From: an uncultured Alphaproteobacteria bacterium
GTDB lineage: Bacteria > Pseudomonadota > Alphaproteobacteria > RF32 > CAG-239
Assembly (NCBI GenBank): GCA_944393235.1
Contig: CALXZJ010000009.1
Coordinates: 1-52,071 of the forward strand
Direction of reading: 5' to 3'
Length of the DNA: 52,071 nucleotides
In this document: positions 35,731-52,071 of the stretch, in pieces
Layout: each line of letters starts with the position of its first letter
Position numbering within the stretch: position 1 is the first letter of the stretch
The notes under the pieces: generated by a model
The model's database searches: none
Told to the model about the DNA's origin: nothing
Seen by the model: the letters and a program-made list of their open reading frames with translations, nothing else
Made by a program: the position numbers and the translations under genes

Positions 35731-37121
35731 TTATATCCGCCGCCGGTTGCTTTGTAAAAAGCAATAATGTTCTGATAAACAGCGCCGTTGCTTTTGATAA
35801 AATCAGTTTGCGCATTAAGCAGGTCTTGTTCGGCTTTGAGCAATTCTGAAAATTCAATCAATCCGCTCTCATACTTATCACGCATAGCGCGTAAAACTTT
35901 TTGCATATTATTAACAGCGTTTTGCTGTGCCCGATTATGTTGATACTCGGTTTGCACGGCGCTTATGGAATTTTGCAGTTCTTCCACGGCTTGTAAAATA
36001 GTTTGACGGTAGTTTTCAAAAGTTTCTGCTTTAATTTCTTTTTGTAACTGAATATTGCTTTGCAGCTTACCCCAATTAAATAAGGGTAGAGAAATTTTGG
36101 GCGTATAGCCATAAGCTTGGCTGTCTGAATTAAAGAGTTTAGAACCGGCACCGGATTGAAAACCAAATAAACCGCCGATGCTTAAGTTAGGATAAAGTGC
36201 GGCAATAGCTTGCCCGATGGCAGCGTTTTGTGCAGCTATTGCTCGTTCGGCGGCTTTAACGTCAGGACGACTGCGTATAATATCGGCGGGAAGCTCATAA
36301 AGTTTGTAAATATCATAATGATAGGCCTTTTGTACTGGATTTTTGTGAGAACTTAAAACATCTGCCGGCAAATTATCCGGCAAAACGCCGGTTAAAACCG
36401 CCAAGGCATTTTTATAAGATGTTATTTGATTTTCTAAAGTCGGGATAAGTGCTTTGGTGCTTTCCGTCAAGTATTGTGCCTGATGATAAGTTGCGGCGTC
36501 CGTCAATCCGGATTTATATTTTTCTGTTACAGTTTGCAAAATGTCTTGCTGCAATTTCAAATTGTTTTGAGCATTGCTTAGTTGCGCCTGCATCGTTCTT
36601 AATAAAAAATAAGTATTGGCAACTTCTGCCGTTAACATCACCTGCAAATTGTGTAATGAAAAATAAGCTTGTTCAAACTCAGCCAAAGATTGTTCATTCA
36701 ACCGTCGTCCGGCACCCCATACATCAATTTCCCAAGCTGCGTCCAACCCAATTTGAAAATAGTTTGTATCCGCCGCCAAGCCGATGTTTTTGCTGGCTTT
36801 TGTGTACTCATATTGTGTATCGGTACTGAGTGTCGGCAAATATTGCGTGCGATTGATGGCAGCGATTGTTCTTGCTTGCCGCAGTTTTGCAACCCCGCCT
36901 TTAATTGTCGGGCTGTTGGTTAAAGCAGTTTCAATCAGAATATTGAGTGATTTATCATTAAATTGTTTGTACCATTGTTTTGAAACTTGCGAGTTTGTCT
37001 CTTTCAAATGGAGAGATTTGGCGATTTGTTCGTCATCAAAAACAATAGGTTCTTCATAATCAGGGCCGACCGTGCAAGAACAAAATAAAAACAGCAAGAA
37101 AACCGACAAATATTTAATCAT
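35727..37121 (-). CDS. NodT/OprM-family outer-membrane factor lipoprotein
   Basis: A 464-residue TolC-like channel of a tripartite efflux pump. The lipobox LFCSC and the following TVGPDYEEP are typical of the NodT/OprM subgroup. The two OEP repeats are visible ([27 protein letters not shown] and [23 protein letters not shown]), as is the signature [24 protein letters not shown] chose the ATG at 37121 (GGAGG 5 nt upstream), which overlaps the RND gene by 8 nt; the longer frame would run deep into that gene. Confidence 0.93.
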
Positions 37122-40100
37122 TGCCGCCTCCGTTATCAGAAATAATTGATGTGTTGTTTTGCGGTTTAAAATGTTCTTTAACCGTTTCAAACAAGGCAAA
37201 CAAAGCCGGAATAAAGATAATGCCGATAAAAGTTGCCGCAATCATGCCGAAAAACACCGAACTGCCGATGGCAATTTGCGAAGCGGCGCCGGCACCTTTG
37301 GCGACAACCATCGGGAAAACACCCAAAATAAAGGTTAAAGCAGTCATTAAAACCGCACGGAATCTTTCTTCAGCGCCTTTTTGCGACGCTTGCAAAATGC
37401 TATAACCTTGTTCGCGGTAGTCTTTGGTAAATTCCACAATTAAAATAGCGTTTTTAGCCGCCAGCCCGATGAGCATAATAAGCCCAAGTTGAGCGTAGAT
37501 GCTTAAAGATTGCCCCATAAAATGCAAACCGATTAAAGCGCCTAAAATGGCAAATACCGTTGAAAACATAACCGCGAATGCCAACATCCAGCTTTCGTAC
37601 AAAGCCACCAAAAACAAGTAACAAAATATCAAAGCCAGCGTAATCAAAATCATCGCCAACCCGCGAGCTTCCACCTCTTGCAGGCTCAAGCCGGTCCACG
37701 CCAGCCGATAATCTTTTGATAAAATTTCATCGGCGATATTTTGCATATTGTCAATGGCTGTGCCGCTGCTGATATTTTCTTGCGCCATTGCGGTAATGCC
37801 GGCGGCGGTATATTGATTGTAGCGGTAAATAATTTTTGGACTGATTTCGGTTTTAATCTCGGCAAAACTGCTTATTTTAACCGGAATGTCGTCTAAAGAG
37901 CGGACATAAAGGTTGCCGACATCATCAATGTCTTTTCGATAATCAAAATCGGCTTGCATAATTACCTTGTTTATCTGCCCGTTTAGAGTGATATTGTTGA
38001 TATAGCGGGAACCGAGATTGTTTTGCAAAGCCTCAAACAAATTTGATACCGGAATTTTATAAGATTCCAACTTGACACGGTCTATATCCAGATAAATATG
38101 AGGTGTTTCTGCGGTAAAGGTGCTAAACGCATACGCCAAATCAGGCGAACGATTGAGATGTTCCAGATACAAATTTAGATTTTTATAAAGTTCTTGCGGC
38201 GAGATTGTGCCGTCAACAGCCAGCAATTCTGCCGAAAGTCCGTCGCTTTGCCCGACCCCGGGGATTGACGGCGGTGTGAAAAAATTAAATTCTGCCTGAG
38301 AGTTACCGGCAAAATCTGCTGAAAATTTTCGGGTTAATGCTTCAATGGATAAATTTTTACTTTCCCTTTTATCCCAATCTTCAAGACCGATAACCCCCAG
38401 CGCCACATTTTCGCCTTGTCCGCCAAGAATGCTGTATCCGGCAATAGTGATACAATATTTAACCCCGTCTGTGTGAAGAGCTTTTTCTGTCAGTTGCTGC
38501 AGCACATCTTCGGTTTGGTTGATACTGGCAGTATCCGCGAGTTGAATATTGGCAAAAATAATACCCTGATCTTCTTCCGGCAAAAAAGAATCCGGCGTAA
38601 ATTTAAACCCGAGGGCGATAAGTGCGATGGTGCCGATAACGGCAGCAACAGTTGCCCACAATCTTGCGGCAAAAAAAGTAACAGCGCTTAAATATTTTTC
38701 TTTAAAATAATTCAAAGCATCGTCAAACTGCTTAAAAAAGCCGTGTTGTGCTGTTGTTTCTTCTTCATTTTTAAGCAAAATCGAACATAAAGAAGGGCTT
38801 AAGGTCAGAGCATTAAAGGCAGAAAAAGCCACAGAAGTTGCAATAGCGACAGCAAATTGCTGATAGATTTTTCCGGTAATGCCAGCCATTAACCCGACAG
38901 GAATAAAAATAGAAAGCAGCACAAATGTGGTGGCAACAACAGCGCTGCCGATTTGCTGCATGGCTTTAATGGCAGCTTGACGCGAATCCAGATGTTCATT
39001 TTCCATCAGATATTGCACGCGTTCAACCACAATAATAGCGTCATCCACCACCAGACCGATGGCTAAAATCATGGCAAACAGAGTTAAAATATTAATATCA
39101 AAACCTAAAATATAAACAACCATAAAAGTGGCGATTAAAGAAACCGGAATGGTAAACAGCGGAATAAGCGTTGTGCGGATTTTTTGTAAAAAAACAAAAG
39201 TGACCAAAACCACCAACCCAAAAGTAACAAACAAGGTTTCAATAATGTTGTCAATAGAAGCGCGCACATAAGCGGTTGAATCGTAGGCAATTTCAAAGAC
39301 CATATCGTCGGGAAAAGATTGAGAAACTTCTGCAATTTTGGCGCGGATGTTTTTCATGATATCCAAAGAATTTGAATTTGGCGTCTGATTAAGAGCAATA
39401 ATCACCGCTGGTTCATTTTTAAAGGCTGATTTGATACCATATGAATCCGCACCAAGCTCAACTTTTGCCACATCTTTGAGATAAACCACGCCGCCGTCTT
39501 CGGATGTTGCAACCACAATATTTTCAAAGTCTTGAACGCTGTTCAATAAGCCTTTTGCCGTCAAAGAAAGCACCATGTTTGTACCGGATGTGCTGGGCGC
39601 GGAGCCGAGGCTTCCGACGGAAGCTTGAACGTTTTGTTGTTCCACGGCTTGAATAATGCTGTTGCTATCCAATCCCAAAGAAGTAATTTTATTAGCATCA
39701 AGCCAAATACGCATACTGTATTGCGGCCCGAAAATCTGCACATCGCCGATGCCTTTAACGCGCGCTAATGGATTTTGCAAAGTTGTATGCGCGTAATTGC
39801 TTAAATACAGACTGTCGTAAGTGTTGTTTGGCGAGCGCAAAACCAACAAGGCCAAGATATTGGGGTTTTGTGTGGTAACATCAACACCTTGTTGGGTGAC
39901 AATGACTGGCAAATCAGACATAACCTGTTGCAGCCGGTTTTGTACTTTAACTTGTGAAATGTCTGGGTTTGCGCCGACTTCAAACGTGACGGTCAATGTA
40001 TAATTGCCGCTGTCATCAGATGTCGAAGACATATAAAGCATATTTTCCACACCGTTGATTTGATTTTCAGTCGGCACCGCCACCGTATCAACCAAAACTT

Positions 40101-40266
40101 CAGCGTTTGCACCGGGATATGTCGTTTTGACCACGATTTGCGGCGGTGTGATTTCGGGATATTGCGAAATCGGCAGCACGATAATAGCCAAAGCGCCTAA
40201 CAATACCATAACAATGGAAATAACAATTGCAAAACGTGGTCTGTCAATAAAATATGCTGAAAACAT
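37114..40266 (-). CDS. RND multidrug efflux pump (HAE1/AcrB-MexB type)
   Basis: A 1050-residue proton-driven transporter with 12 membrane spans. The HAE1 start [27 protein letters not shown], the [16 protein letters not shown] motif with the proton-relay Asp pair in span 4 and the span-11 region [15 protein letters not shown] with its Lys partner are all seen. The ATG at 40266 overlaps the MFP stop by one base (TGATG), with GGAG 8 nt upstream. Substrates cannot be deduced. It is the middle gene of a three-gene operon; no TetR-type regulator is adjacent. Confidence 0.95.
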
Positions 40267-41429
40267 CACTTGCTCTCCGTGTTCGGACTGTCGCTTGCCG
40301 GTTTTTCCAAGACGGGCGTAACCGTTTTATTCAAATAAGAAGCATTAAAGGTTTCAGCTAAAACAAAATCGCCTTTTTGGAAAGTATTCTCAACAATAAA
40401 GTCCGCATTTTCAGAAGCCAAAATATTTATTGTTTCTTTACTGATTTTGCCATTGCGGATAAGGTAAATATAATTTCCGTTTTCTTCTAAAGAAACAAGG
40501 TTTTTAGGTATTTGAACACTGTATTTAAAAATTTGGCGAACCAAAACCGTAACATAAGCGTTAGGTGTAAGCGTTTTACCGATATTCGCGAAATCAGCAT
40601 AAACGGCAATTGTGTTTGCGGCTTTGTCAATTGTATTGTTTGTATAACGAAAAACGCCATGCTTGGCAAATATTTGCCCATCGGCAAGTTGTAATAAAAT
40701 TTCATCATCGGCAAACGGCGAAGTTTTATCAAGCTCCTGCAAATACTCTTTATCGGTTATTGAAAAAACAACGCGTATGGGGCTATATTGCACAATGGAA
40801 AAAAGAACGTCCGAAGCCGGTGAAACATAGTTGCCTTTGGTTAAAGAAACCTCACCGACAATGCCGTCAATCGGCGCACGAATAACGGTATAATCAAAGT
40901 TGACTTTAGATAAAGCATAATTAGCTTGTGCTTGTTCAAGATCCGCTTGCGCAGATAAAAATTGTGTTTGAGCATTATCAAGTTCTGTTGGCGAAACCGC
41001 TTTATTGCCGGCTTTTTTTATCCGTTCATAATAAATGGATGCATTTTTTAAGGCGGTTTCAGCCTTTAAAACTTCGGCAGCCGCCGCGGCTAATTCAGCG
41101 CGGTATTGCTCTTGTTGCAAAACAACAAGAACCTCACCTTTGCGAACATATTTTCCGCCTTTAACCATAACTTGTTCAATATAACCGCTGATAAAGGGTT
41201 TAATTTCAGCCTCGTGTATGGGTACGACATAGCCGACGTAGCGTTTGGTAAAAGGAATGTCTTGTGCTTTAATTGGCAGAGCTTTTAAGGCAAGAGTGTC
41301 AGAGGTTTCCAAAGAGGTATTTGCTGATTTTTTGAGATGTTTTTGCCAAGCAGCAAAAGAAAAACAGCCCAGTATAAAGGCTGTTAAAACAAGAATAGTG
41401 GTAAAAAATATTGTTCTTTTCTTTTCCAT
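40266..41429 (-). CDS. RND efflux periplasmic adaptor (membrane fusion protein)
   Basis: A 387-residue adaptor with an N-terminal anchor span (about 7-28), the lipoyl half-motif [26 protein letters not shown], a coiled-coil hairpin (about 115-175), a second lipoyl half ([17 protein letters not shown]) and a beta-barrel. It joins the RND pump to the outer-membrane factor. It is the first gene of the operon. The 82-nt region upstream (41430-41511) shows no clear promoter. Confidence 0.93.
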
Positions 41430-43479: not shown

Positions 43480-43553
43480 TTTACAAAATTAAATAAATGT
43501 TAGATATTTTACATTAATTTTAATCTATATTGGCATAAAAGCAAGGATTGTTT

Positions 43554-43844
43554 ATGGATAAATTAAAAATTATTAAAACAACAGTTTTCTTTTTAACGTT
43601 TTGTATGGTATTTTTGTTATGTTTTCTCATAACAAAAATTATCATACAATGCGGGCAAGAACAAGATTTTTATACCATTAAGCTGGATATTTTGCCATCA
43701 CAAAAAGAATATAATCTTTTAAGCGATGGCCGGCGCTTATATATTTCCGCCGACAAAAAAATACATATCATTAATTTATCGGATAAAATTTATGAAGGGG
43801 TTGTTATCTTAGATAGCGGAGGTACAGAAAATGGCAAAAAATAA
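43554..43844 (+). CDS. Small single-span membrane protein next to rluD
   Basis: A 96-residue protein with one N-terminal span (about 8-32) and a small, probably beta-rich periplasmic domain (YNLLSDGRRLYISADKKIHIINL). No family is recognised; small DUF-type proteins of similar size sit by rluD in several alphaproteobacteria. It is divergent from rluD. Its 3' end overlaps the next gene by 14 nt. I chose the ATG at 43554 over the TTG two codons upstream. Confidence 0.6.
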   Translation: MDKLKIIKTTVFFLTFCMVFLLCFLITKIIIQCGQEQDFYTIKLDILPSQKEYNLLSDGRRLYISADKKIHIINLSDKIYEGVVILDSGGTENGKK

Positions 43845-44760
43845 AAACCAGTCAAAAAAAAACGATTCAATGCTTGATATTAACCAAACCATAATTGGGC
43901 GAATGGAACCGGAGCCGTCAAAAGATTCGGAAGATGATGAATTTGAACAACTTTTAAATAATTTTATTAACACGGACGATGCAAGCATTAATGTCGCAGC
44001 ACCGGCAGAAAAGCCTCTTACGGACATCAATGACAAAAAAAGCAATAACATACGAAAAGATATGGCACTCCTTGATTTAGGCAATGATGAAAATGAATTA
44101 GCACAAGCTTATGCCAATTTTATTGATGCCGTAACAGCCATTGCTGCCGCCAGATCAATTTCTTTGCCGGATTTTATCTTTAAGCCGCAAATGTTGGTGC
44201 CAAACTATAAACCCAGCATCGGTAGAAAAATTGTAGATGATGCTTCCTTATGTTGGGATATAATGCTGCAGGCATTTCCTGAAAAGCTTTCCATGCTTAA
44301 TCCCAATTCTGGCGATGAAGAATTTTTAAATTTTGCTGAAGGCTTATCGGATCAAAATTTACAATTGGCCATAATTTCTTACGTAGAAATTTTAATAGAC
44401 ATTGAAAATTGTGAAATTTCTTATGAGGAAAAACGTCTAAAAGCCCAACGCCGTCGAATTGAACGTGAGCTATATGAAGAATATCAGCGCCGCCGTGAGC
44501 GTAAGCTAAAATTTATAGAAGCGGTTAAAAAACGAAAATTTCCGGTAGATGCCGATCGTTTAATTAATAATTATTTCAAAACAGCAACAAAAGATGCAGA
44601 AGGAGCATTTGAAGCATTAACAAAAAATCCGGCTATTTACGCGCCGATAGAAATTCAAAAAATAAAACCGCGCTTGTTTGGCTTGATAAAAGTAACGCCG
44701 AAAGACGGAATACGCGAGAATCATCGGCTTGGGAGATTCTTAAAATACTTAAAAGTGTAA
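43831..44760 (+). CDS. Unassigned soluble protein, first of the coupling-ATPase cluster
   Basis: A 309-residue protein without signal peptide or membrane span. An acidic, probably disordered N-terminus (about 1-90) precedes a helical middle region, a strongly basic helix (about 205-235: RLKAQRRRIERELYEEYQRRRERK) and a C-terminal domain. I do not recognise the family. The start has a good ribosome site (GGAGG, about 8 nt). Co-orientation with the downstream genes suggests membership of the same accessory system. Confidence 0.6.
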   Translation: MAKNKNQSKKNDSMLDINQTIIGRMEPEPSKDSEDDEFEQLLNNFINTDDASINVAAPAEKPLTDINDKKSNNIRKDMALLDLGNDENELAQAYANFIDAVTAIAAARSISLPDFIFKPQMLVPNYKPSIGRKIVDDASLCWDIMLQAFPEKLSMLNPNSGDEEFLNFAEGLSDQNLQLAIISYVEILIDIENCEISYEEKRLKAQRRRIERELYEEYQRRRERKLKFIEAVKKRKFPVDADRLINNYFKTATKDAEGAFEALTKNPAIYAPIEIQKIKPRLFGLIKVTPKDGIRENHRLGRFLKYLKV

Positions 44761-44840
44761 AATTTTTGTCATAAAAAACATTCTGGACAAAAATAAAAAA
44801 CAGTGTTAAAGTATAAATATCTACAATACGGAGAAAACAA

Positions 44841-46874
44841 ATGGCAGAAGAAAGCACGGAAGAATTTAAGGCTAAATTAAAAGAAGATTCAGAGCGTCTT
44901 TTTGCCTTGTTGAGCAAAAAAGAGCTTTCGGCCGAAGACAAACAACAAGCAGATGCCATTATAGGAGCAAATCCGCAAATTTTAGGCTGGAAAGATTTTA
45001 CGGAAAAAGTAGCCCTGCCGGATTTAATGACAGAACATAAAAAAGAAACCGATATATCTAAATTGATAAACCGCTCGGAGCAAGCTTTACAAACGACCAG
45101 ACAAGTTTTGGACAATTTACAGCAAATGAAAAAAGAAGGGATGCTTGCGTCAGTAAAAAATCCAGCAGCAGATGTTATTGATACAGGCATAGCTCCAAAT
45201 GGTGAAACCATAGCAACGCAAACAGTTAAAAATATTAATTTTTTAGAAAGTCTGAAAACTCTACCCGAAAAAGCTGAAGAACAAGCCCTTGTTGCGGGGT
45301 ATAATAAAGAATACAAAGAGTTTCTAACCAAAATGTACAAAGATGAAAACAGTTACGGTGCCAATTCGCAAAGCCGAAATTTAAAAGGGGAAAGCACCAA
45401 AGATATTTTAAGAAATATATCAGCTGACCGAAACCCGGTACCAGTCGAAAGCCTGCGGCAAAATAATCCGCAAAATCATTTAAGCACAACAAGAACAGAG
45501 GAGAAACAAGCCATGCCGCAAAAAACATTAAGCATAGAAGAGCTTAAAGACAAAGCATATCAAGGCACATTAACGGTTGAACAAGCAAATCAGCTGCGCA
45601 AACACGATGATGATAAAAAAATTGCCGATATGAAAAATCAGGACGGCGATGCCAAAAAGAACAGGCATGAGCCCAGTAAAGATAAGTTTAGAGATGAAGA
45701 TGTCATCAAATACATGTATGAAGATTGGTTTTTGGGCGGCGCCAGCTGGTTGTTTAATACAGTTGAAGCCGGTGCATTGGGGCTTATAGATAGCGCTTGT
45801 GAGAAGGCCAGAGAAAGAGCGGCAAAATATCGTCAAGAAAAAGAGGACAAGAAAGAGAAAAAATTAAACGAATCTCATACGCGTGCCAACAATTTCCAAC
45901 AAATGACCGGCAACATGATGGATGGTTTGGGTGCTCAATGTCAGGCAAAAGCAGAATCATATAATGCTTTAATGCAAGAATTACGCGATAATTTAGGCAA
46001 CCCGAATCCAAATTGGCAGCATTTTGATCCAAACGATCCTTTTATTCAAAGACTGGAAGCCAATCCGGCCCAAGCCCGAAAATTTATAGATAAAACGTCG
46101 CAAGAGCTGCAAAACCGGACAAAGATGATAGAAACTACCGGAAAATTAGCGATGTTGATTACATCAACAGAAATGGTTGATGAGTTTATGAAAAACCACA
46201 AAACATGGAATAATAAGAACAACCAACCGGCAAGCAATGAAGAATTGCAGGAAATGTTTATGCAAAGATACCAAGAAACCCAAGGAAACATCTTACAAGC
46301 TCTGACAGTAATGGCTGAAGACAACCGAATAATGTCTGAGGCCATACACAACACAATGCCGGATCCAAAACCGGATTTAGAAACTTTTACGCAACAGCGT
46401 TTAACACAACAGCAAAACGATTTCTTAAAACAATTGGCTGAAAAAACCAAAGAAGCATCTTCTGTACAACAAGAAGATTTAAATAATAATCGTTTTAATG
46501 ATTTTAGCGATGAAAACGCATCGTCTAAGACCAGATCAAAGCTAAATCAAATTCATAAAATGATAGATGGTAAGATTAAAGATGGCAATCTTTATGACAA
46601 AGAAATTTTCAGCGTCGAGCATTCTAGAGAAAGAATTAACGCTAAAGCCGGCTTATATGAAGAGGCAATGAAAGAAAATTCACCGCAAAGCATGCAGAAA
46701 ATTTTTGAATATGCCAAAGAGTTAAACGGCTATCAGCACGAGACTTTGGAAAGCCGTCGGCTCGATGCCGCAGCCCGGCGGAATACGGTAGAAAAATATA
46801 AAAATCAAATTATAGGTCGGAACCAAAATCCTCTGACAAAAATGTTTGGAAAAATGGGGAATAATCAACGGTAA
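44841..46874 (+). CDS. Large unassigned Gln/Asn-rich helical protein
   Basis: A 677-residue soluble protein of mostly helical, Gln-, Asn-, Lys- and Glu-rich sequence. No membrane span is clear apart from a weakly hydrophobic segment near 295-312 (WFLGGASWLFNTVEAGALG). It resembles no family I know. In a cluster with a type IV coupling ATPase it could be a structural component, chaperone or secreted substrate, but this is inference. A good ribosome site (CGGAG, about 7 nt) and an 80-nt upstream gap support separate translation. Confidence 0.6.
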   Translation: MAEESTEEFKAKLKEDSERLFALLSKKELSAEDKQQADAIIGANPQILGWKDFTEKVALPDLMTEHKKETDISKLINRSEQALQTTRQVLDNLQQMKKEGMLASVKNPAADVIDTGIAPNGETIATQTVKNINFLESLKTLPEKAEEQALVAGYNKEYKEFLTKMYKDENSYGANSQSRNLKGESTKDILRNISADRNPVPVESLRQNNPQNHLSTTRTEEKQAMPQKTLSIEELKDKAYQGTLTVEQANQLRKHDDDKKIADMKNQDGDAKKNRHEPSKDKFRDEDVIKYMYEDWFLGGASWLFNTVEAGALGLIDSACEKARERAAKYRQEKEDKKEKKLNESHTRANNFQQMTGNMMDGLGAQCQAKAESYNALMQELRDNLGNPNPNWQHFDPNDPFIQRLEANPAQARKFIDKTSQELQNRTKMIETTGKLAMLITSTEMVDEFMKNHKTWNNKNNQPASNEELQEMFMQRYQETQGNILQALTVMAEDNRIMSEAIHNTMPDPKPDLETFTQQRLTQQQNDFLKQLAEKTKEASSVQQEDLNNNRFNDFSDENASSKTRSKLNQIHKMIDGKIKDGNLYDKEIFSVEHSRERINAKAGLYEEAMKENSPQSMQKIFEYAKELNGYQHETLESRRLDAAARRNTVEKYKNQIIGRNQNPLTKMFGKMGNNQR

Positions 46875-46904
46875 GAAGCTAAAAACAACAAAAAGAGGCT
46901 GGAG

Positions 46905-47399
46905 TTGTTAAAAAAAATTTTAAAATTTTTTAAATTTATTATTGTCGGGTGCGTATGGACATTTGCCCTTATATGTTTTGCGCGTTGGTTGCTGATTAAA
47001 ATTTGGAGTTTTGATATTTTTTATAAAAAGCAATGGGAAGTCATGGTTGGCTTTTGGAACAACAATGGCGTCATTATTGGCTTTTCAGATTACATGTTTT
47101 TTGTAACTTTATTGTTTGTGGTGGCTTTTTGGTTTTTCGGTTGGTATTTTTTTTACAAGCTAAAATACTCAAAGATACTCATAGCGCCGATTAATTACAT
47201 AGCAAACCGCGAATTAAAAAAATACGAAAAAGAAAGTAAGTATATCACATTTAAAAACATTTCAGTTGCAGAAAAGATAACGGTAGAAGACCTTATACAA
47301 GAACGCATCCACAAAGAAAAAAATGAAGATAATACCAAAAAAGCAGACTTGTTAAGAAAAAATATTTCAGAAAAAATAATTAAGCGTAAGGAGCAATAA
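46905..47399 (+). CDS. Two-span membrane protein with a VGCxW...WxFDIF motif (paralog 1)
   Basis: A 164-residue protein starting at TTG, with GAGG 6 nt upstream. Two membrane spans (about 10-33 and 62-85) frame a Trp-rich loop, and a charged helical tail follows. The first 70 residues align without gaps to the next gene's product; shared positions include VGC, Trp, Arg, W(S/R)FDIF, two spaced Trp and VI. The family is unknown. Adjacent to a coupling ATPase, it is a candidate membrane partner of that protein. Confidence 0.6.
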   Translation: MLKKILKFFKFIIVGCVWTFALICFARWLLIKIWSFDIFYKKQWEVMVGFWNNNGVIIGFSDYMFFVTLLFVVAFWFFGWYFFYKLKYSKILIAPINYIANRELKKYEKESKYITFKNISVAEKITVEDLIQERIHKEKNEDNTKKADLLRKNISEKIIKRKEQ

Positions 47400-47453
47400 A
47401 AACTTGTTAACTAATAAAGAATATAATATCCTCTAAACAAACGGGAGAAAAAG

Positions 47454-48971
47454 TTGAAACCCTTACTTGTACTGGCACGTATAACATTTGTTGGATGCCT
47501 GTGGAGCATTATCTTCACGGAAGGTATAAGGGTTATTATGCTTGAAAGCTGGCGTTTTGACATTTTTTGGCCAGCACATTGGCTTCATGCCTGGAATTTA
47601 TGGTCATCCGGCTGGGTGATTGATACACCGAAAGAATGGGCCTTTATCCTGATTATTGTCGCTTTTATCCCGATGCTATTAACCGGCTGGATTGCTTTAA
47701 GTTTAATTCCATGGGAACATTTAGTATGGAAAATAATAACATATCCGTTTCATTTAATTCGTTCAATATGGAAACCTATCAAAATAATAACCAAACAACC
47801 GGTTGTCGTTAAAAGAAAATCTTATAAAGAAATACGTCCGGCAGGTCCGCGAGCCCCAATATATGATTATAATGATTCTCCTGCAATAACTTCCTCTTCT
47901 GCTCCGGCGCCGGTTCAAACATCATCTCGTCCGCTTTCATCATCAGATAATCAAAGTATAAAAAGCAAGGCGGCTGCTGCCAAAGATACGTTCAGCCATG
48001 CGCTGTTTAATTTAGGTGATGAAGATGATGATTTTGATTTGGATTTTGATTCTTTTGAAAAATCAGACATTTTCAAAATCGACAGTTCCAAACCCAAAAA
48101 CCCAGAGAAAAAGGACGACAGATCAGACAAAAACAACCGTTTTGAGTTTCATGATGATGAAGATGATGATGAAAATTATATCAAGCCGAAAGAAACAAAA
48201 TATGAAGATGAAAAACGGCATAAAAACAATCACCAACAAGAAGACGATTATAATCCGCACCGGTATTCGGATAACGAAGAATATTCCCACCGCCGTGATA
48301 ATAAAAGCGCCGCATCTGATGCGCGTTCGGACAATCGGAAAAACGACAATCGCCGCGATCGCCGAGAAGATCGCCGCGTTAACGCTGAAACAAGAAATGA
48401 ACGCCGCCGCGATAATAAAAACGAAAACAAAAAACAACCCAAAGAAAATATATCAGAACCGCAGATACCAAACAATCCGGTTGCCGATATCTTAATGCAA
48501 AAAGGTTATGATGTTGTTTCTAACCTAACCATCAAAAACACTTTGGTTGACTTTATAGGCGTTGCAGAAGGCAAAATATGTTTATGCTTGGTTGACAAAG
48601 AGCCGGGAGACTGGCTGGCAGATGAAGAACGGTTTAATGATGAAGAGCCGTTGTGGTTTTCAGAAAGCAGTCATAGAATATCGCCTGTTCGAAAAGCCGA
48701 CATTGTATGCCAGGCATTATCTGATAAATTAGAAAGCAACAATGATGTGGATTTTGAGATAAAACCGTTTGTTATTATCCAGATGGGTAATATTATAAAT
48801 GCTGAAGATATGTTTGAAGTATGGGATGAAATTGGGGTAGAAGTCACGCGTATCAACCGCGGTAGTCCAAAAGAAATCAAGTTGTTTTCAAAGAGCATAG
48901 AAGAAGCTGAAGGAAAATTAAGCAAAAACAAATTAGATACGTTAAAAAAATTAATGCGTAACATAACATAG
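47454..48971 (+). CDS. Two-span membrane protein with a long charged linker and a C-terminal domain (paralog 2)
   Basis: A 505-residue protein starting at TTG with GGGAG upstream. Residues 1-95 are paralogous to the previous protein (two spans, VGCLW and WRFDIFW). A Pro/Ser region and a long Asp-, Asn- and Arg-rich linker (about 185-330) are probably disordered and charge-patterned. The last 165 residues form a folded domain (VADILMQKGYDVVSNLTIKN, LVDFIGVAEGKICLCLVD) whose pattern resembles a NERD or PD-(D/E)XK-like fold but lacks a convincing catalytic triad. The role is unknown; an inner-membrane component contacting nucleic acid or the coupling ATPase is possible. Confidence 0.65.
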   Translation: MKPLLVLARITFVGCLWSIIFTEGIRVIMLESWRFDIFWPAHWLHAWNLWSSGWVIDTPKEWAFILIIVAFIPMLLTGWIALSLIPWEHLVWKIITYPFHLIRSIWKPIKIITKQPVVVKRKSYKEIRPAGPRAPIYDYNDSPAITSSSAPAPVQTSSRPLSSSDNQSIKSKAAAAKDTFSHALFNLGDEDDDFDLDFDSFEKSDIFKIDSSKPKNPEKKDDRSDKNNRFEFHDDEDDDENYIKPKETKYEDEKRHKNNHQQEDDYNPHRYSDNEEYSHRRDNKSAASDARSDNRKNDNRRDRREDRRVNAETRNERRRDNKNENKKQPKENISEPQIPNNPVADILMQKGYDVVSNLTIKNTLVDFIGVAEGKICLCLVDKEPGDWLADEERFNDEEPLWFSESSHRISPVRKADIVCQALSDKLESNNDVDFEIKPFVIIQMGNIINAEDMFEVWDEIGVEVTRINRGSPKEIKLFSKSIEEAEGKLSKNKLDTLKKLMRNIT

Positions 48972-48980
48972 AGGTAAAAA

Positions 48981-51191
48981 ATGGCATTTCGGGAAAGAGG
49001 CGTAGAATGGGAAGAATATGATAACGCTGTCAAATGGATGGCGGTTACCATGATTATAACGCTGGTCGTCACACTTTTGTTAACGGTGTTTTCGTTGCCT
49101 TTAGCATATTTAATTGAACATGGCATTTCCAAAAAAACGATAGCCAGTGTTAAAATGTTTTTATCGGCAGTCCAAGAGCGCCCATCATTTTTATTTAGCC
49201 AATATTACAGTTGGATGCAAAAACTTTCAGGAGCTGAGGGTTTTTCTATTAGCCGTTGGCTTCCGGTATTGCCATTTCTGGCGTTGCCGATAGGCATCAT
49301 TACCGGAGCAATCACTTGCCCATACCGTTTCCAGTCCAATGTTCATGGTTCGGCGCGGATTGCCACTTTGCGCGACATTAACAAAATGGAACTTTTGGGT
49401 TTTGATGGTTTTTGCCAAGTTGTCGGCAAATTTAAAGGCAAAATGCTTTTATTAAAAGAAACCTTATCAACACTGTGCTGTGCACCTCCGGGAACCGGTA
49501 AAACAGCAGGGGTGGTTATCCCGACCATATTTAATTCGCCGACATTAAGTTTGATTGTCAATGACCCTAAGCCGGAGCTTGATACCAAAACATCAGGCGC
49601 TCGTGCCAAAGTCGGACCGGTGTTTGTTATCAACTGGGGTGCTGAAGACCGCCCATCGGAAGGGATTTATTACCCTAGCTGGAATCCGTTATCGCCGAAT
49701 GCCTTGCCGGCAATGGGGCCGGAGCGCGATATGTATATCGATTCAATTTGCAACATATTGGTGGAAGACCCGAAAGGAAGTTCTGACCCGATTTGGTCGC
49801 AAAACGGCCGCGCGGCCTTAAACGGTTTTATTCACTTTATTTGCTCCAAATGCGAACGGGCGCGTGCCAATGACTATTTTATTGGCCGCATTTACGAGGG
49901 GAAGCTTGATGAAGAAGACAAACGCGTTTTGGAAGGCTACTATAACGACATGCGCGATCCGATGGTGCCGAAAGCTTTGAGTGATTTGAAAAATGGAACG
50001 ATAACGATTGATAATTATTTGCCGATAGGCACATGGAATTTGCTGCCGGAAAAATGGATTGGTCGTGAATCTTGCATTGCCATGATTTTGGAATGGTTGA
50101 CCGAAGCGCAAATCAAACAAGCCCAAGAAATCAAACGCCGTTTGGCAGAAGGCGACCAAATGGCAGCAATGGCTGACCCAATGCACGACTTGTTGGATGA
50201 AGCGGTTGAAGAAGCCCGCAAATACGGCTATTCGCAACGCTGCTATACAGAGTTGAGCTCTTTGGCGGCCAAACCGGATAAAGAACGTGGCTCCGTTATT
50301 TCTACGGCATTTGCCGGCATCAACATCTTTAAAAACTCGGCTGTGGTGGCGCGAACCAGTTTTTCGGATTTGCACTTTAAGGATTTACGCGGCATGAAAG
50401 ATCCGGTAACCGGCGAATGGAAACCGATTTCGGTTTACTTATCCATTAACCAGACCGATGCCCGCGCTCTGGGTATGATTTCGAGCGTATTTATTGAACT
50501 GATGAGCTCATATCTTATTTCTAACCCGCCGAATTACGTTAATAAAACCGATGGCAAAATGGGGCCGTTTGGCTGTTTGTTTGTGTTGGACGAATTTCCG
50601 CAAATGCCGAAGTTAAAAGCGGTTATTGATGGCCCGGCGGTCGGCCGCGGACAAAAGGTTTCATATTTACTTATCGGACAAGATTTAGGCCAAATTTCGG
50701 GCAAATACGGCAAAGATGACTTGGAAACGGTTATTTCCACAACCGCATGCAAGATTATCCTTTCGCAAAACAACGAAGTAACGGCGCAGCGCTTTTCCAA
50801 GATGATTGGCAACCGCACGGTTCAAACCTCATCATATTCAAAAAACGAGGGCGGACTTGGCAAAAACTCCAATCCTTTTGCCAAGAACGTCAGTTATCAA
50901 TTGCAAGGTGTTTCAGTTATCAGCACGACACAATTGTTGAGTTTGCCGATGTTAAAACAGGTTGTTTTGATGCAAAGCTATATCGATCGCCCGATTATGG
51001 CAGATTCGCCGCGTTGGTATATGGATAGCCATATGCGCAAATTAGCAGCTTTGAAACCGTCGCCTTATGTTCCGGACTGGGTTGTTGCCCAGCGCGAAGA
51101 CATCAACGAAGACATGCTTTCTAAGCTTGGCATTGACTATAATCCTGATGAAGCAACAGATACTTTTGAGGAAGATACCGAAGCCTCTTAG
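48981..51191 (+). CDS. VirD4/TraG-like type IV coupling ATPase
   Basis: A 736-residue hexameric-type ATPase. Two N-terminal spans (about 20-45 and 94-113) precede the VirD4 start signature HGSARIATLRDINKMELLG, Walker A APPGTGKT (168-175; many VirD4 proteins have SGKG), NDPKPELDTKTSGARA, an all-alpha insertion (about 225-440) and Walker B LFVLDEFPQMPKL (533-545) followed by IGQDLGQISGKYG. It would recruit DNA or protein substrates to a type IV secretion channel. No VirB gene is in the window. Its ribosome site GAGG lies 6 nt from the ATG. The family is certain; the kind of substrate is not. Confidence 0.9.
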   Translation: MAFRERGVEWEEYDNAVKWMAVTMIITLVVTLLLTVFSLPLAYLIEHGISKKTIASVKMFLSAVQERPSFLFSQYYSWMQKLSGAEGFSISRWLPVLPFLALPIGIITGAITCPYRFQSNVHGSARIATLRDINKMELLGFDGFCQVVGKFKGKMLLLKETLSTLCCAPPGTGKTAGVVIPTIFNSPTLSLIVNDPKPELDTKTSGARAKVGPVFVINWGAEDRPSEGIYYPSWNPLSPNALPAMGPERDMYIDSICNILVEDPKGSSDPIWSQNGRAALNGFIHFICSKCERARANDYFIGRIYEGKLDEEDKRVLEGYYNDMRDPMVPKALSDLKNGTITIDNYLPIGTWNLLPEKWIGRESCIAMILEWLTEAQIKQAQEIKRRLAEGDQMAAMADPMHDLLDEAVEEARKYGYSQRCYTELSSLAAKPDKERGSVISTAFAGINIFKNSAVVARTSFSDLHFKDLRGMKDPVTGEWKPISVYLSINQTDARALGMISSVFIELMSSYLISNPPNYVNKTDGKMGPFGCLFVLDEFPQMPKLKAVIDGPAVGRGQKVSYLLIGQDLGQISGKYGKDDLETVISTTACKIILSQNNEVTAQRFSKMIGNRTVQTSSYSKNEGGLGKNSNPFAKNVSYQLQGVSVISTTQLLSLPMLKQVVLMQSYIDRPIMADSPRWYMDSHMRKLAALKPSPYVPDWVVAQREDINEDMLSKLGIDYNPDEATDTFEEDTEAS

Positions 51192-51199
51192 TGTAAAAA

Positions 51200-51928
51200 A
51201 TGGTTGATGAAATAAAAAACATACCAATAGAAAAAGTACTAAAATCTGCATTAACCCACATGCAGACAAGTTCAAAACAACTGCGATACTTTTGGTTGGC
51301 AAATTTTGCTTTTTTAAGCGCTTTTGCCCTTATTCCGGACGGGTTGTCAAATCCGTTAAGCATTGTTTGGCTAATGCTTTATTATATTTATTGGTGTGGT
51401 TTCTTTCGAGTATATTTCAAAAAAAAGCCATATTTTCTAACCATGGACATTTTCGGCAGTATCATACCATCTACCAAAATATTTTTCATAACTGTTTTGG
51501 CAGCATTTTTATTAATAATTTTGCCATATCTTCCTTTGTTCATGGGGTTTAATGAGAAATATTTATTGTTTTTTGAAAAATATATGGAAGCCCTGCAAAA
51601 CGCCGAAGCCGGCATATTAAATCAAGTTGTCTTGGCAATAATATTACTAATCATATCACCAATAATCATCTGCCGACCATATTTTGCGTGGATATCATCT
51701 TTGCAAGGCTTGAATGGCTCCATGCGCAAAGCTTTTCGCAAAACGGAAGGAAATTATTGGCGTTTTGCTTATATAATGATGATATTAAATTTACCATGCA
51801 TCGTAATTTATGAATTAGACTTATATTTAGGCTGCCATGGTTGGTTATCTGTCGGTTTTTATTCCATATTTTTTATTTATTTGAATTTGGTTTTTGCCAA
51901 ACTGTACGAATTCTTTTACACCGAATAA
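51200..51928 (+). CDS. Polytopic membrane protein of unknown function
   Basis: A 242-residue protein with about six membrane spans and little conserved charge in the loops, of the DUF975/YciC-like general appearance. It starts 8 nt after the coupling ATPase stop without a clear ribosome site, so translation may be coupled. I do not recognise the family; its place in the cluster suggests a membrane component of the same system. It is the last recognisable gene before the window end. Confidence 0.55.
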   Translation: MVDEIKNIPIEKVLKSALTHMQTSSKQLRYFWLANFAFLSAFALIPDGLSNPLSIVWLMLYYIYWCGFFRVYFKKKPYFLTMDIFGSIIPSTKIFFITVLAAFLLIILPYLPLFMGFNEKYLLFFEKYMEALQNAEAGILNQVVLAIILLIISPIIICRPYFAWISSLQGLNGSMRKAFRKTEGNYWRFAYIMMILNLPCIVIYELDLYLGCHGWLSVGFYSIFFIYLNLVFAKLYEFFYTE

Positions 51929-51970
51929 TATACTAATAATTGTTATTACAAATAAATACAATTTAAAACT

Positions 51971-51994
51971 GTGGACGGATATATATCCGTCCAC
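51971..51994. repeat. Perfect 24-bp palindrome
   Basis: GTGGACGGATAT is followed directly by its reverse complement. As RNA it could fold with an AU loop. It lacks a U-tract on the plus strand and has only AGTTTT on the minus strand, so it is a weak terminator at best and could equally be an operator. The rest of 51929-52071 holds no supported gene, although a frame at the very end (from about 51995 on, plus strand) stays open. Confidence 0.6.
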
Positions 51995-52071
51995 ATCCTA
52001 TCATGAGCATGCCTTAGAGCCGGGTTATTATTGCTGGACTGGAGAATGTAGAGAGATTCCAGATGAAGTTT

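Follow-up and report, generated by a model that had tools for sequence, protein, structure and literature searches.

The window analysed here, the whole of contig C9 (52,071 bases) of a genome of 1.43 Mb in 62 contigs, carries at 43831-51928 a gene cluster that we read, with a probability of roughly 0.7, as encoding an accessory coupling complex, assembled around VirD4, through which protein substrates are recruited to a chromosomally encoded VirB machine (T4ASS). The core of the module is formed by genes A-B-C-D-VirD4 (VirD4 is gene E), and gene F is a local add-on. Direct support comes from synteny, from co-occurrence with VirB4, from a single VirD4 clade, and from fold predictions, which are of moderate confidence for D and confident, though without a matching fold, for A. 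We infer the physical assembly of the complex, its substrates and its function, and the transfer of protein rather than of DNA.

The cluster comprises six open reading frames on the plus strand, as the original prediction of six co-oriented genes with short gaps had it: gene A (43831-44760; 309 aa), gene B (44841-46874; 677 aa), gene C (46905-47399; 164 aa, TTG start), gene D (47454-48971; 505 aa, TTG start), gene E for a VirD4/TraG-type coupling ATPase (48981-51191; 736 aa), and gene F for a polytopic membrane protein (51200-51928; 242 aa). The intergenic gaps are 80, 30, 54, 9 and 8 nt in that order. Hydropathy predicts two N-terminal hydrophobic helices for E, two each for C and D, about four for F, and none for A and B. 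An 11-bp inverted repeat 3' of F (51970-51995; pattern match, no strand assigned) is a possible terminator; terminator-like pattern matches are no more numerous than in shuffled sequence. E is the only one of the six with a named family: A, B, C, D and F gave no significant match in Pfam, NCBIfam or PADLOC, which agrees with the earlier statement that no companion was recognisable as a VirB, Tra or Dot/Icm component, and PHROGs, searched alongside these three collections, gave no useful lead for A, B, C or F either. A small ORF with one transmembrane helix (43548-43844) shares 14 nt with the 5' end of A; it is present in several relatives, has a sub-threshold match to DUF6476, and is probably outside the module. 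Further upstream, the translations at 37114-41429 (minus strand) represent an ordinary RND efflux pump and a membrane-fusion protein.

The assignment of E as a clear coupling ATPase was confirmed by a match to PF02534 (T4SS-DNA_transf) at 2.9e-54 (185.1 bits, over the cut-off), supplemented by PF12696 (TraG-D_C; 2.3e-22, 79.7 bits, over the cut-off) and TrwB_AAD_bind (1.8e-17); a phmmer search against the PDB gave no match. The N-terminal transmembrane helices are predicted by hydropathy at residues 15-47 and 93-114, and the PF02534 match ends at residue 687 of 736. E is the sole VirD4 found in the genome of the window.

The absence of VirB genes, as originally claimed, holds within the window, where none lies 3' of E and the contig ends, and does not hold for the genome. 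On contig C2, VirB4 (PF03135) was found at C2:30235, and the surrounding 39 kb (L048/L049) encode three TrbC/VirB2-like proteins (one over the cut-off), two VirB8, VirB9 (CagX), VirB10 (TrbI with beta-flower repeats) and VirB11; the Pfam matches are PF03135, PF04335 (twice), PF03524, PF03743, PF00437 and PF04956. No Pfam match for VirB1, VirB3, VirB5, VirB6 or VirB7 was obtained among the remaining proteins of the cluster, a result that applies to subunits neither small nor divergent. Hence the coupling system is not an orphan, and its VirB machine is encoded elsewhere in the genome. Outgroup homologues of E lie directly 3' of virB11 in three genomes (G029, G033 and G151) and on Erythrobacter and Sphingosinicella plasmids. 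In view of these outgroup loci, the virB set on C2 and the single VirD4 of the genome, the best reading of E is that it serves as coupling protein in a VirB/D4-type system with virD4 outside the virB operon; as virD4 and the virB genes are on separate contigs, we infer their cooperation from phylogeny. Contig C2 also encodes a type IVb/R64-like pilus cluster (secretin, PilO PF06864, T2SSE, T2SSF; L048:1466-11390, minus strand) divergent to virB4, with homologues placed likewise in family f23 (L226:11313-19206); a functional link between pilus and T4SS is possible. The VirB10 region consists of two large overlapping ORFs rich in beta-flower repeats (PF21785; L049:8492-12118 and L049:12081-16337), of which only the second has the TrbI domain; this may reflect a split gene or a frameshift.

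In a tree of 56 VirD4 sequences, all D-adjacent VirD4s formed one clade (support 100/97) together with that of genome G021, whose neighbouring genes are cut off, and the virB11-linked sequences fell outside. The VirD4 of G299 was also placed outside the module clade, in a position that is unsure because of its long branch. E contains an insert of about 55 residues (residues 295-349; 49863-50027, plus strand) that is present in 34/34 module VirD4s, in a second paralogue clade and in families f69 and f158, and is shrunk to six residues or fewer in all 12 VirD4s of the virB11-linked clade; it may be considered a candidate docking site. The second, distant paralogue clade (28-41% identity to E) is represented in many relatives (L069:8809-11151, L234-L237, L239, L031) and was not found in the genome of the window; in L069, the gene sits 3' of a gene for a pentapeptide-repeat protein. 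In the 0.9-Mb genomes of f69 (L224:9262-13447, L225:5105-9379), a VirD4 without D is located near an rpoH-like sigma gene. This resembles the place of the module in the family of the window, either by chance or because the two loci have a common origin.

The original prediction of a multi-protein system was borne out as a conserved set centred on the coupling ATPase: A, the B position, C, D and E recur in the same order in 16 relatives of the same family or order, beside rluD and mostly also rpoH. A wider scan of named genomes with an alignment of D gave 80 loci, nearly all from metagenome-assembled genomes labelled Alphaproteobacteria, Azospirillum, Rhodospirillaceae or proteobacterium, many of them from animal gut and rumen; going by these names, the family probably corresponds to the gut lineage generally known as RF32. 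D was present in 80 of these loci, E in 78, C in 77, B in 72, A in 71, the HNH-like gene described below in 16, and F in 13. The order A-B-C-D-E is kept beside rluD/rpoH in most loci, with exceptions mainly at contig ends, where most of the missing copies of A, B or E are accounted for. As to the earlier question whether all six genes travel together, this holds for A-E and fails for F. One record with the module (L180, JAISVX010000003.1) is titled Lactobacillaceae bacterium, a name that is probably wrong for this alphaproteobacterial module, and in another (L213:4009-9461) A, B and C are doubled in tandem 5' of D and VirD4.

Within a sample of 385 genomes of the class, an orthologue of A was found in 18 and a convincing D in 22 genomes of ten families (eleven with f2 added); a match to D in G124 was left out of the count (25 bits, residues 68-156 only). 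At nearly all D loci read in other families, D lies directly 5' of VirD4; in the exceptions, G299 has its VirD4 on a different contig, and G021 is cut off by contig ends. A VirB4 with at least 52% identity to that of the window's genome, fragments counted, accompanies D in 21 of the 22 genomes; the remaining one, G087 (78% complete), has D and VirD4 and no VirB4 match. The genomes of the sample lacking D have VirB4 at 43% identity or less, except G001 (93%). G001 was rejected as a virB genome without the module: its A and B run into the contig end, which falls inside B. In two families (f23 and f40), A and the B-position gene are located apart from D-VirD4, yet together, once with a paralogue of D. 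No A or D was found in 72,556 plasmid records. Searches of open-access literature gave no description of the module, of NERD or HNH proteins with VirD4 or of an RF32 T4SS, and the coupling platform around VirD4 appears to be undescribed.

Protein D consists of two transmembrane helices, an acidic linker with a KKKSYKxxRP motif, and a C-terminal NERD/PDDEXK-like domain (48456-48968, plus strand) with the conserved pattern GDWLADEE...PLWFSE...NIINAEDM. The NERD profile PF08378 matched 8/18 D homologues at E<0.01 (best 2.2e-6), and one homologue was over the curated cut-off, with the window copy below threshold. An AlphaFold2 model of the domain, built on eight sequences, had a mean pLDDT of 79 and a pTM of 0.78 (weak at residues 57-64), and predicted the order helix, strands, helix, strand, as in PDDEXK nucleases. 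The first Foldseek matches were NucS/EndoMS and AF1548, and with VIA the majority of the best 50 rows were PDDEXK nucleases (Z 5.2-8.6); a PDB profile search with D matched low-complexity linkers only. A Z near 8 alone is no proof, and the NERD match is independent of it, so that we predict, with moderate confidence, kinship of the D domain to NERD/PDDEXK. With the K-x3-G spacing of NERD laid on D, the position of the catalytic Lys is taken by an invariant Asp (D381), and two residues before it a hydrophobic side chain stands for the Glu. The (E/D)xK catalytic motif has apparently been lost, a reading that stays provisional because the register of the motif was aligned by eye. C matches the membrane half of D only. 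In other families, two D-type genes are often found in tandem at the place of C-D, and the D profile detects the C position in G007 and G285; C is therefore probably a truncated paralogue of D that has kept the membrane half.

Protein A is a soluble, all-helical protein with a disordered N-terminus and one helix of 60 residues (175-234), modelled by AlphaFold2 from 68 sequences with a mean pLDDT of 85.6 (about 93-98 over residues 81-309). No Foldseek match was better than E 1.5, and the fold has no clear PDB counterpart; talin VBS2, the best VIA match (Z 8.1), was rejected as a relative, as common arrangements of helices reach such values too. Protein B is mostly low-complexity or coiled and fast-evolving: its orthologues in the same position share 12-49% identity, with a short conserved patch around D287 (DEDVIKYMYEDW) and variable, often Gly/Arg-rich C-termini, and other families have positional counterparts. 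B may serve as a flexible adaptor or may itself be a substrate. F is lineage-specific and occupies the site where many relatives carry an HNH/SUKH gene pair; F and the HNH gene were never found together in the 80 loci.

In these relatives (part of f1, and f4, f23, f33, f40, f51, f70, f74 and f91), VirD4 is followed by the HNH-like gene and then by a gene for a SUKH-like protein of 141-164 aa. The HNH-like protein aligns (31% over 138 columns, pair 9e-17) with the C-terminal part of an LXG-HNH protein encoded by Bacillus phage SPR, for which Pfam reports LXG at 1.5e-57 and a sub-threshold HNH; the next gene in SPR encodes a SUKH protein, to which the SUKH-like protein of the module aligns as well (26% over 102 columns, pair 1e-8). 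The HHK motif of the phage protein reads, in 39/39 module homologues, H or M, then L, I, M, V or Q, then K or R. Its second His, which we take to be the general base from colicin-type HNH enzymes, is accordingly replaced in every homologue, and the protein is degenerate as judged from this motif. A profile search for HNH in the genome of the window (G000) gave nothing, and no SUKH gene is present at the window locus; the pair appears to have been lost in this species, with F in its place.

Four other explanations of the cluster were weighed. The original prediction had offered a stand-alone coupling complex, or a divergent T4SS working without VirB, and the window, with no virB gene and five companions without a family, does look that way. 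This is nevertheless very improbable, given the virB2-like, virB4, virB8 (two), virB9, virB10 and virB11 genes on C2 of the same genome, the co-occurrence of VirB4 with the module and the outgroup VirD4s encoded 3' of virB11. Two findings had been named beforehand as speaking against the prediction, namely a virB operon elsewhere and companions missing from relatives that keep the ATPase; the former was found, and the latter is true of F and false for A-D. That the companions are housekeeping or otherwise unrelated genes which merely stay near virD4 is hardly credible. The locus does abut the conserved rluD and rpoH genes, but D accompanies VirD4 also in families without rluD or rpoH nearby, the A-B and D-E pairs co-occur even where they are split into two sub-clusters, and D shares its phyletic pattern with VirB4 (at least 52% identity).

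The VirD4/TraG family is known best from conjugation, and NERD and HNH are nuclease folds, so that D or the HNH protein could stand in for a relaxase in DNA transfer by conjugation or mobilisation. We regard this as improbable: the HNH general base is replaced throughout, the ExK of D is apparently lost, the locus is fixed on the chromosome beside rluD/rpoH, and A and D had no match in the plasmid records. The relaxase profiles PF03432, PF03389 and PF08751 (MOBP, MOBQ and MOBF), the three families searched, had no match in 15-16 genomes of the family. The lack of these three relaxases and the absence of A and D from plasmids favour a protein-secreting role. An antibacterial T4SS, with the HNH protein of the relatives as delivered toxin, SUKH as immunity protein and B as a further effector, is somewhat less improbable, though still unlikely. 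The HNH and SUKH genes lie side by side and have their homologues in the LXG toxin/immunity pair of a phage of the SPbeta type, and B evolves fast; however, the general-base His is gone from all 39 homologues, which have no LXG domain, the pair is conserved beside VirD4 and not polymorphic, and HNH is absent from the window's genome.

For the preferred reading, an accessory coupling complex for protein substrates, the following mechanism is proposed. E would form a hexameric inner-membrane motor, as expected from its family, with C and D sitting beside it via their related two-helix membrane domains. D may offer its predicted, seemingly dead PDDEXK-fold domain as a cytosolic docking surface, A may act as a soluble helical adaptor, and B as a flexible, largely disordered adaptor or as a substrate. 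In most other families, the degenerate HNH toxin-like protein and SUKH would complete the set as soluble adaptors. The complex would hand the recruited proteins to the VirB machine of contig C2. A wider proposal is made more tentatively, at slightly less than even odds: the module may represent a distinct class of coupling complex, already present in the ancestor of at least ten alphaproteobacterial families and built around VirD4 from domesticated, dead nuclease parts. Its recruitment subunits would be a membrane protein of NERD fold and what was once an HNH toxin with its SUKH immunity partner, and the form in the window would be a derived one that lost the pair.

Coupling complexes determine the cargo of type IV machines, and Legionella Dot/Icm provides the only well-described example with several subunits. 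If the proposal is true, common gut alphaproteobacteria hold a second, unrelated solution, VirD4 motors would gain new adaptors repeatedly, and a toxin/immunity pair would be convertible into machine parts. The gene set A-E plus HNH/SUKH provides a starting point for a hunt for substrates in uncultured gut bacteria.

Among known systems, the VirB/D4 T4ASS with the order virB8-9-10-11-virD4 (for example on Erythrobacter aureus and Sphingosinicella plasmids, L214/L215) shares machine parts with the system of the window: E is 34-35% identical to the VirD4s of these plasmids, and VirB8, 9, 10 and 11 of the window's genome belong to the same families. The window system differs in having virD4 outside the virB operon, in the 55-residue insert, and in A-D alongside (plus HNH/SUKH in relatives). 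D resembles the NERD family (PF08378) in sequence, as matched in 8 of its 18 homologues, and in its predicted PDDEXK-like fold, but is membrane-anchored beside VirD4 and does not conserve ExK. The LXG-HNH/SUKH pair of phage SPR (spr_26/spr_27) shares homologous domains and gene order with the pair of the relatives, in which the LXG domain is lacking, the general-base His is lost and a link to VirD4 is present.

The long C-terminal tail of DotL binds DotN and IcmSW. E extends only about 50 residues beyond its family domain, whereas the C-terminus of DotL exceeds that of its counterparts in T4AS systems by about 200 residues. The Legionella Dot/Icm coupling complex combines the DotL ATPase with a membrane-anchored partner and soluble adaptors for protein substrates (PMC7280309), and the complex proposed for the window would share this plan with the DotL/DotM/DotN/DotY/DotZ and IcmSW assembly (PMC7280309, PMC12857230). 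DotM has three predicted transmembrane helices and an all-alpha cytosolic domain (PMC5802825), in contrast to the predicted alpha/beta, PDDEXK-like domain of D, and an identity of D with DotM was rejected on fold. PDB profile searches with D and the HNH protein gave no sequence match to DotM, DotN, DotY, DotZ or IcmSW, and the fold of A is unmatched. Since DotM is all-alpha and D is predicted not to be, and since E has no long DotL-like tail, the module is best regarded as analogous but not homologous to the Dot/Icm coupling complex, and not as a member of it.
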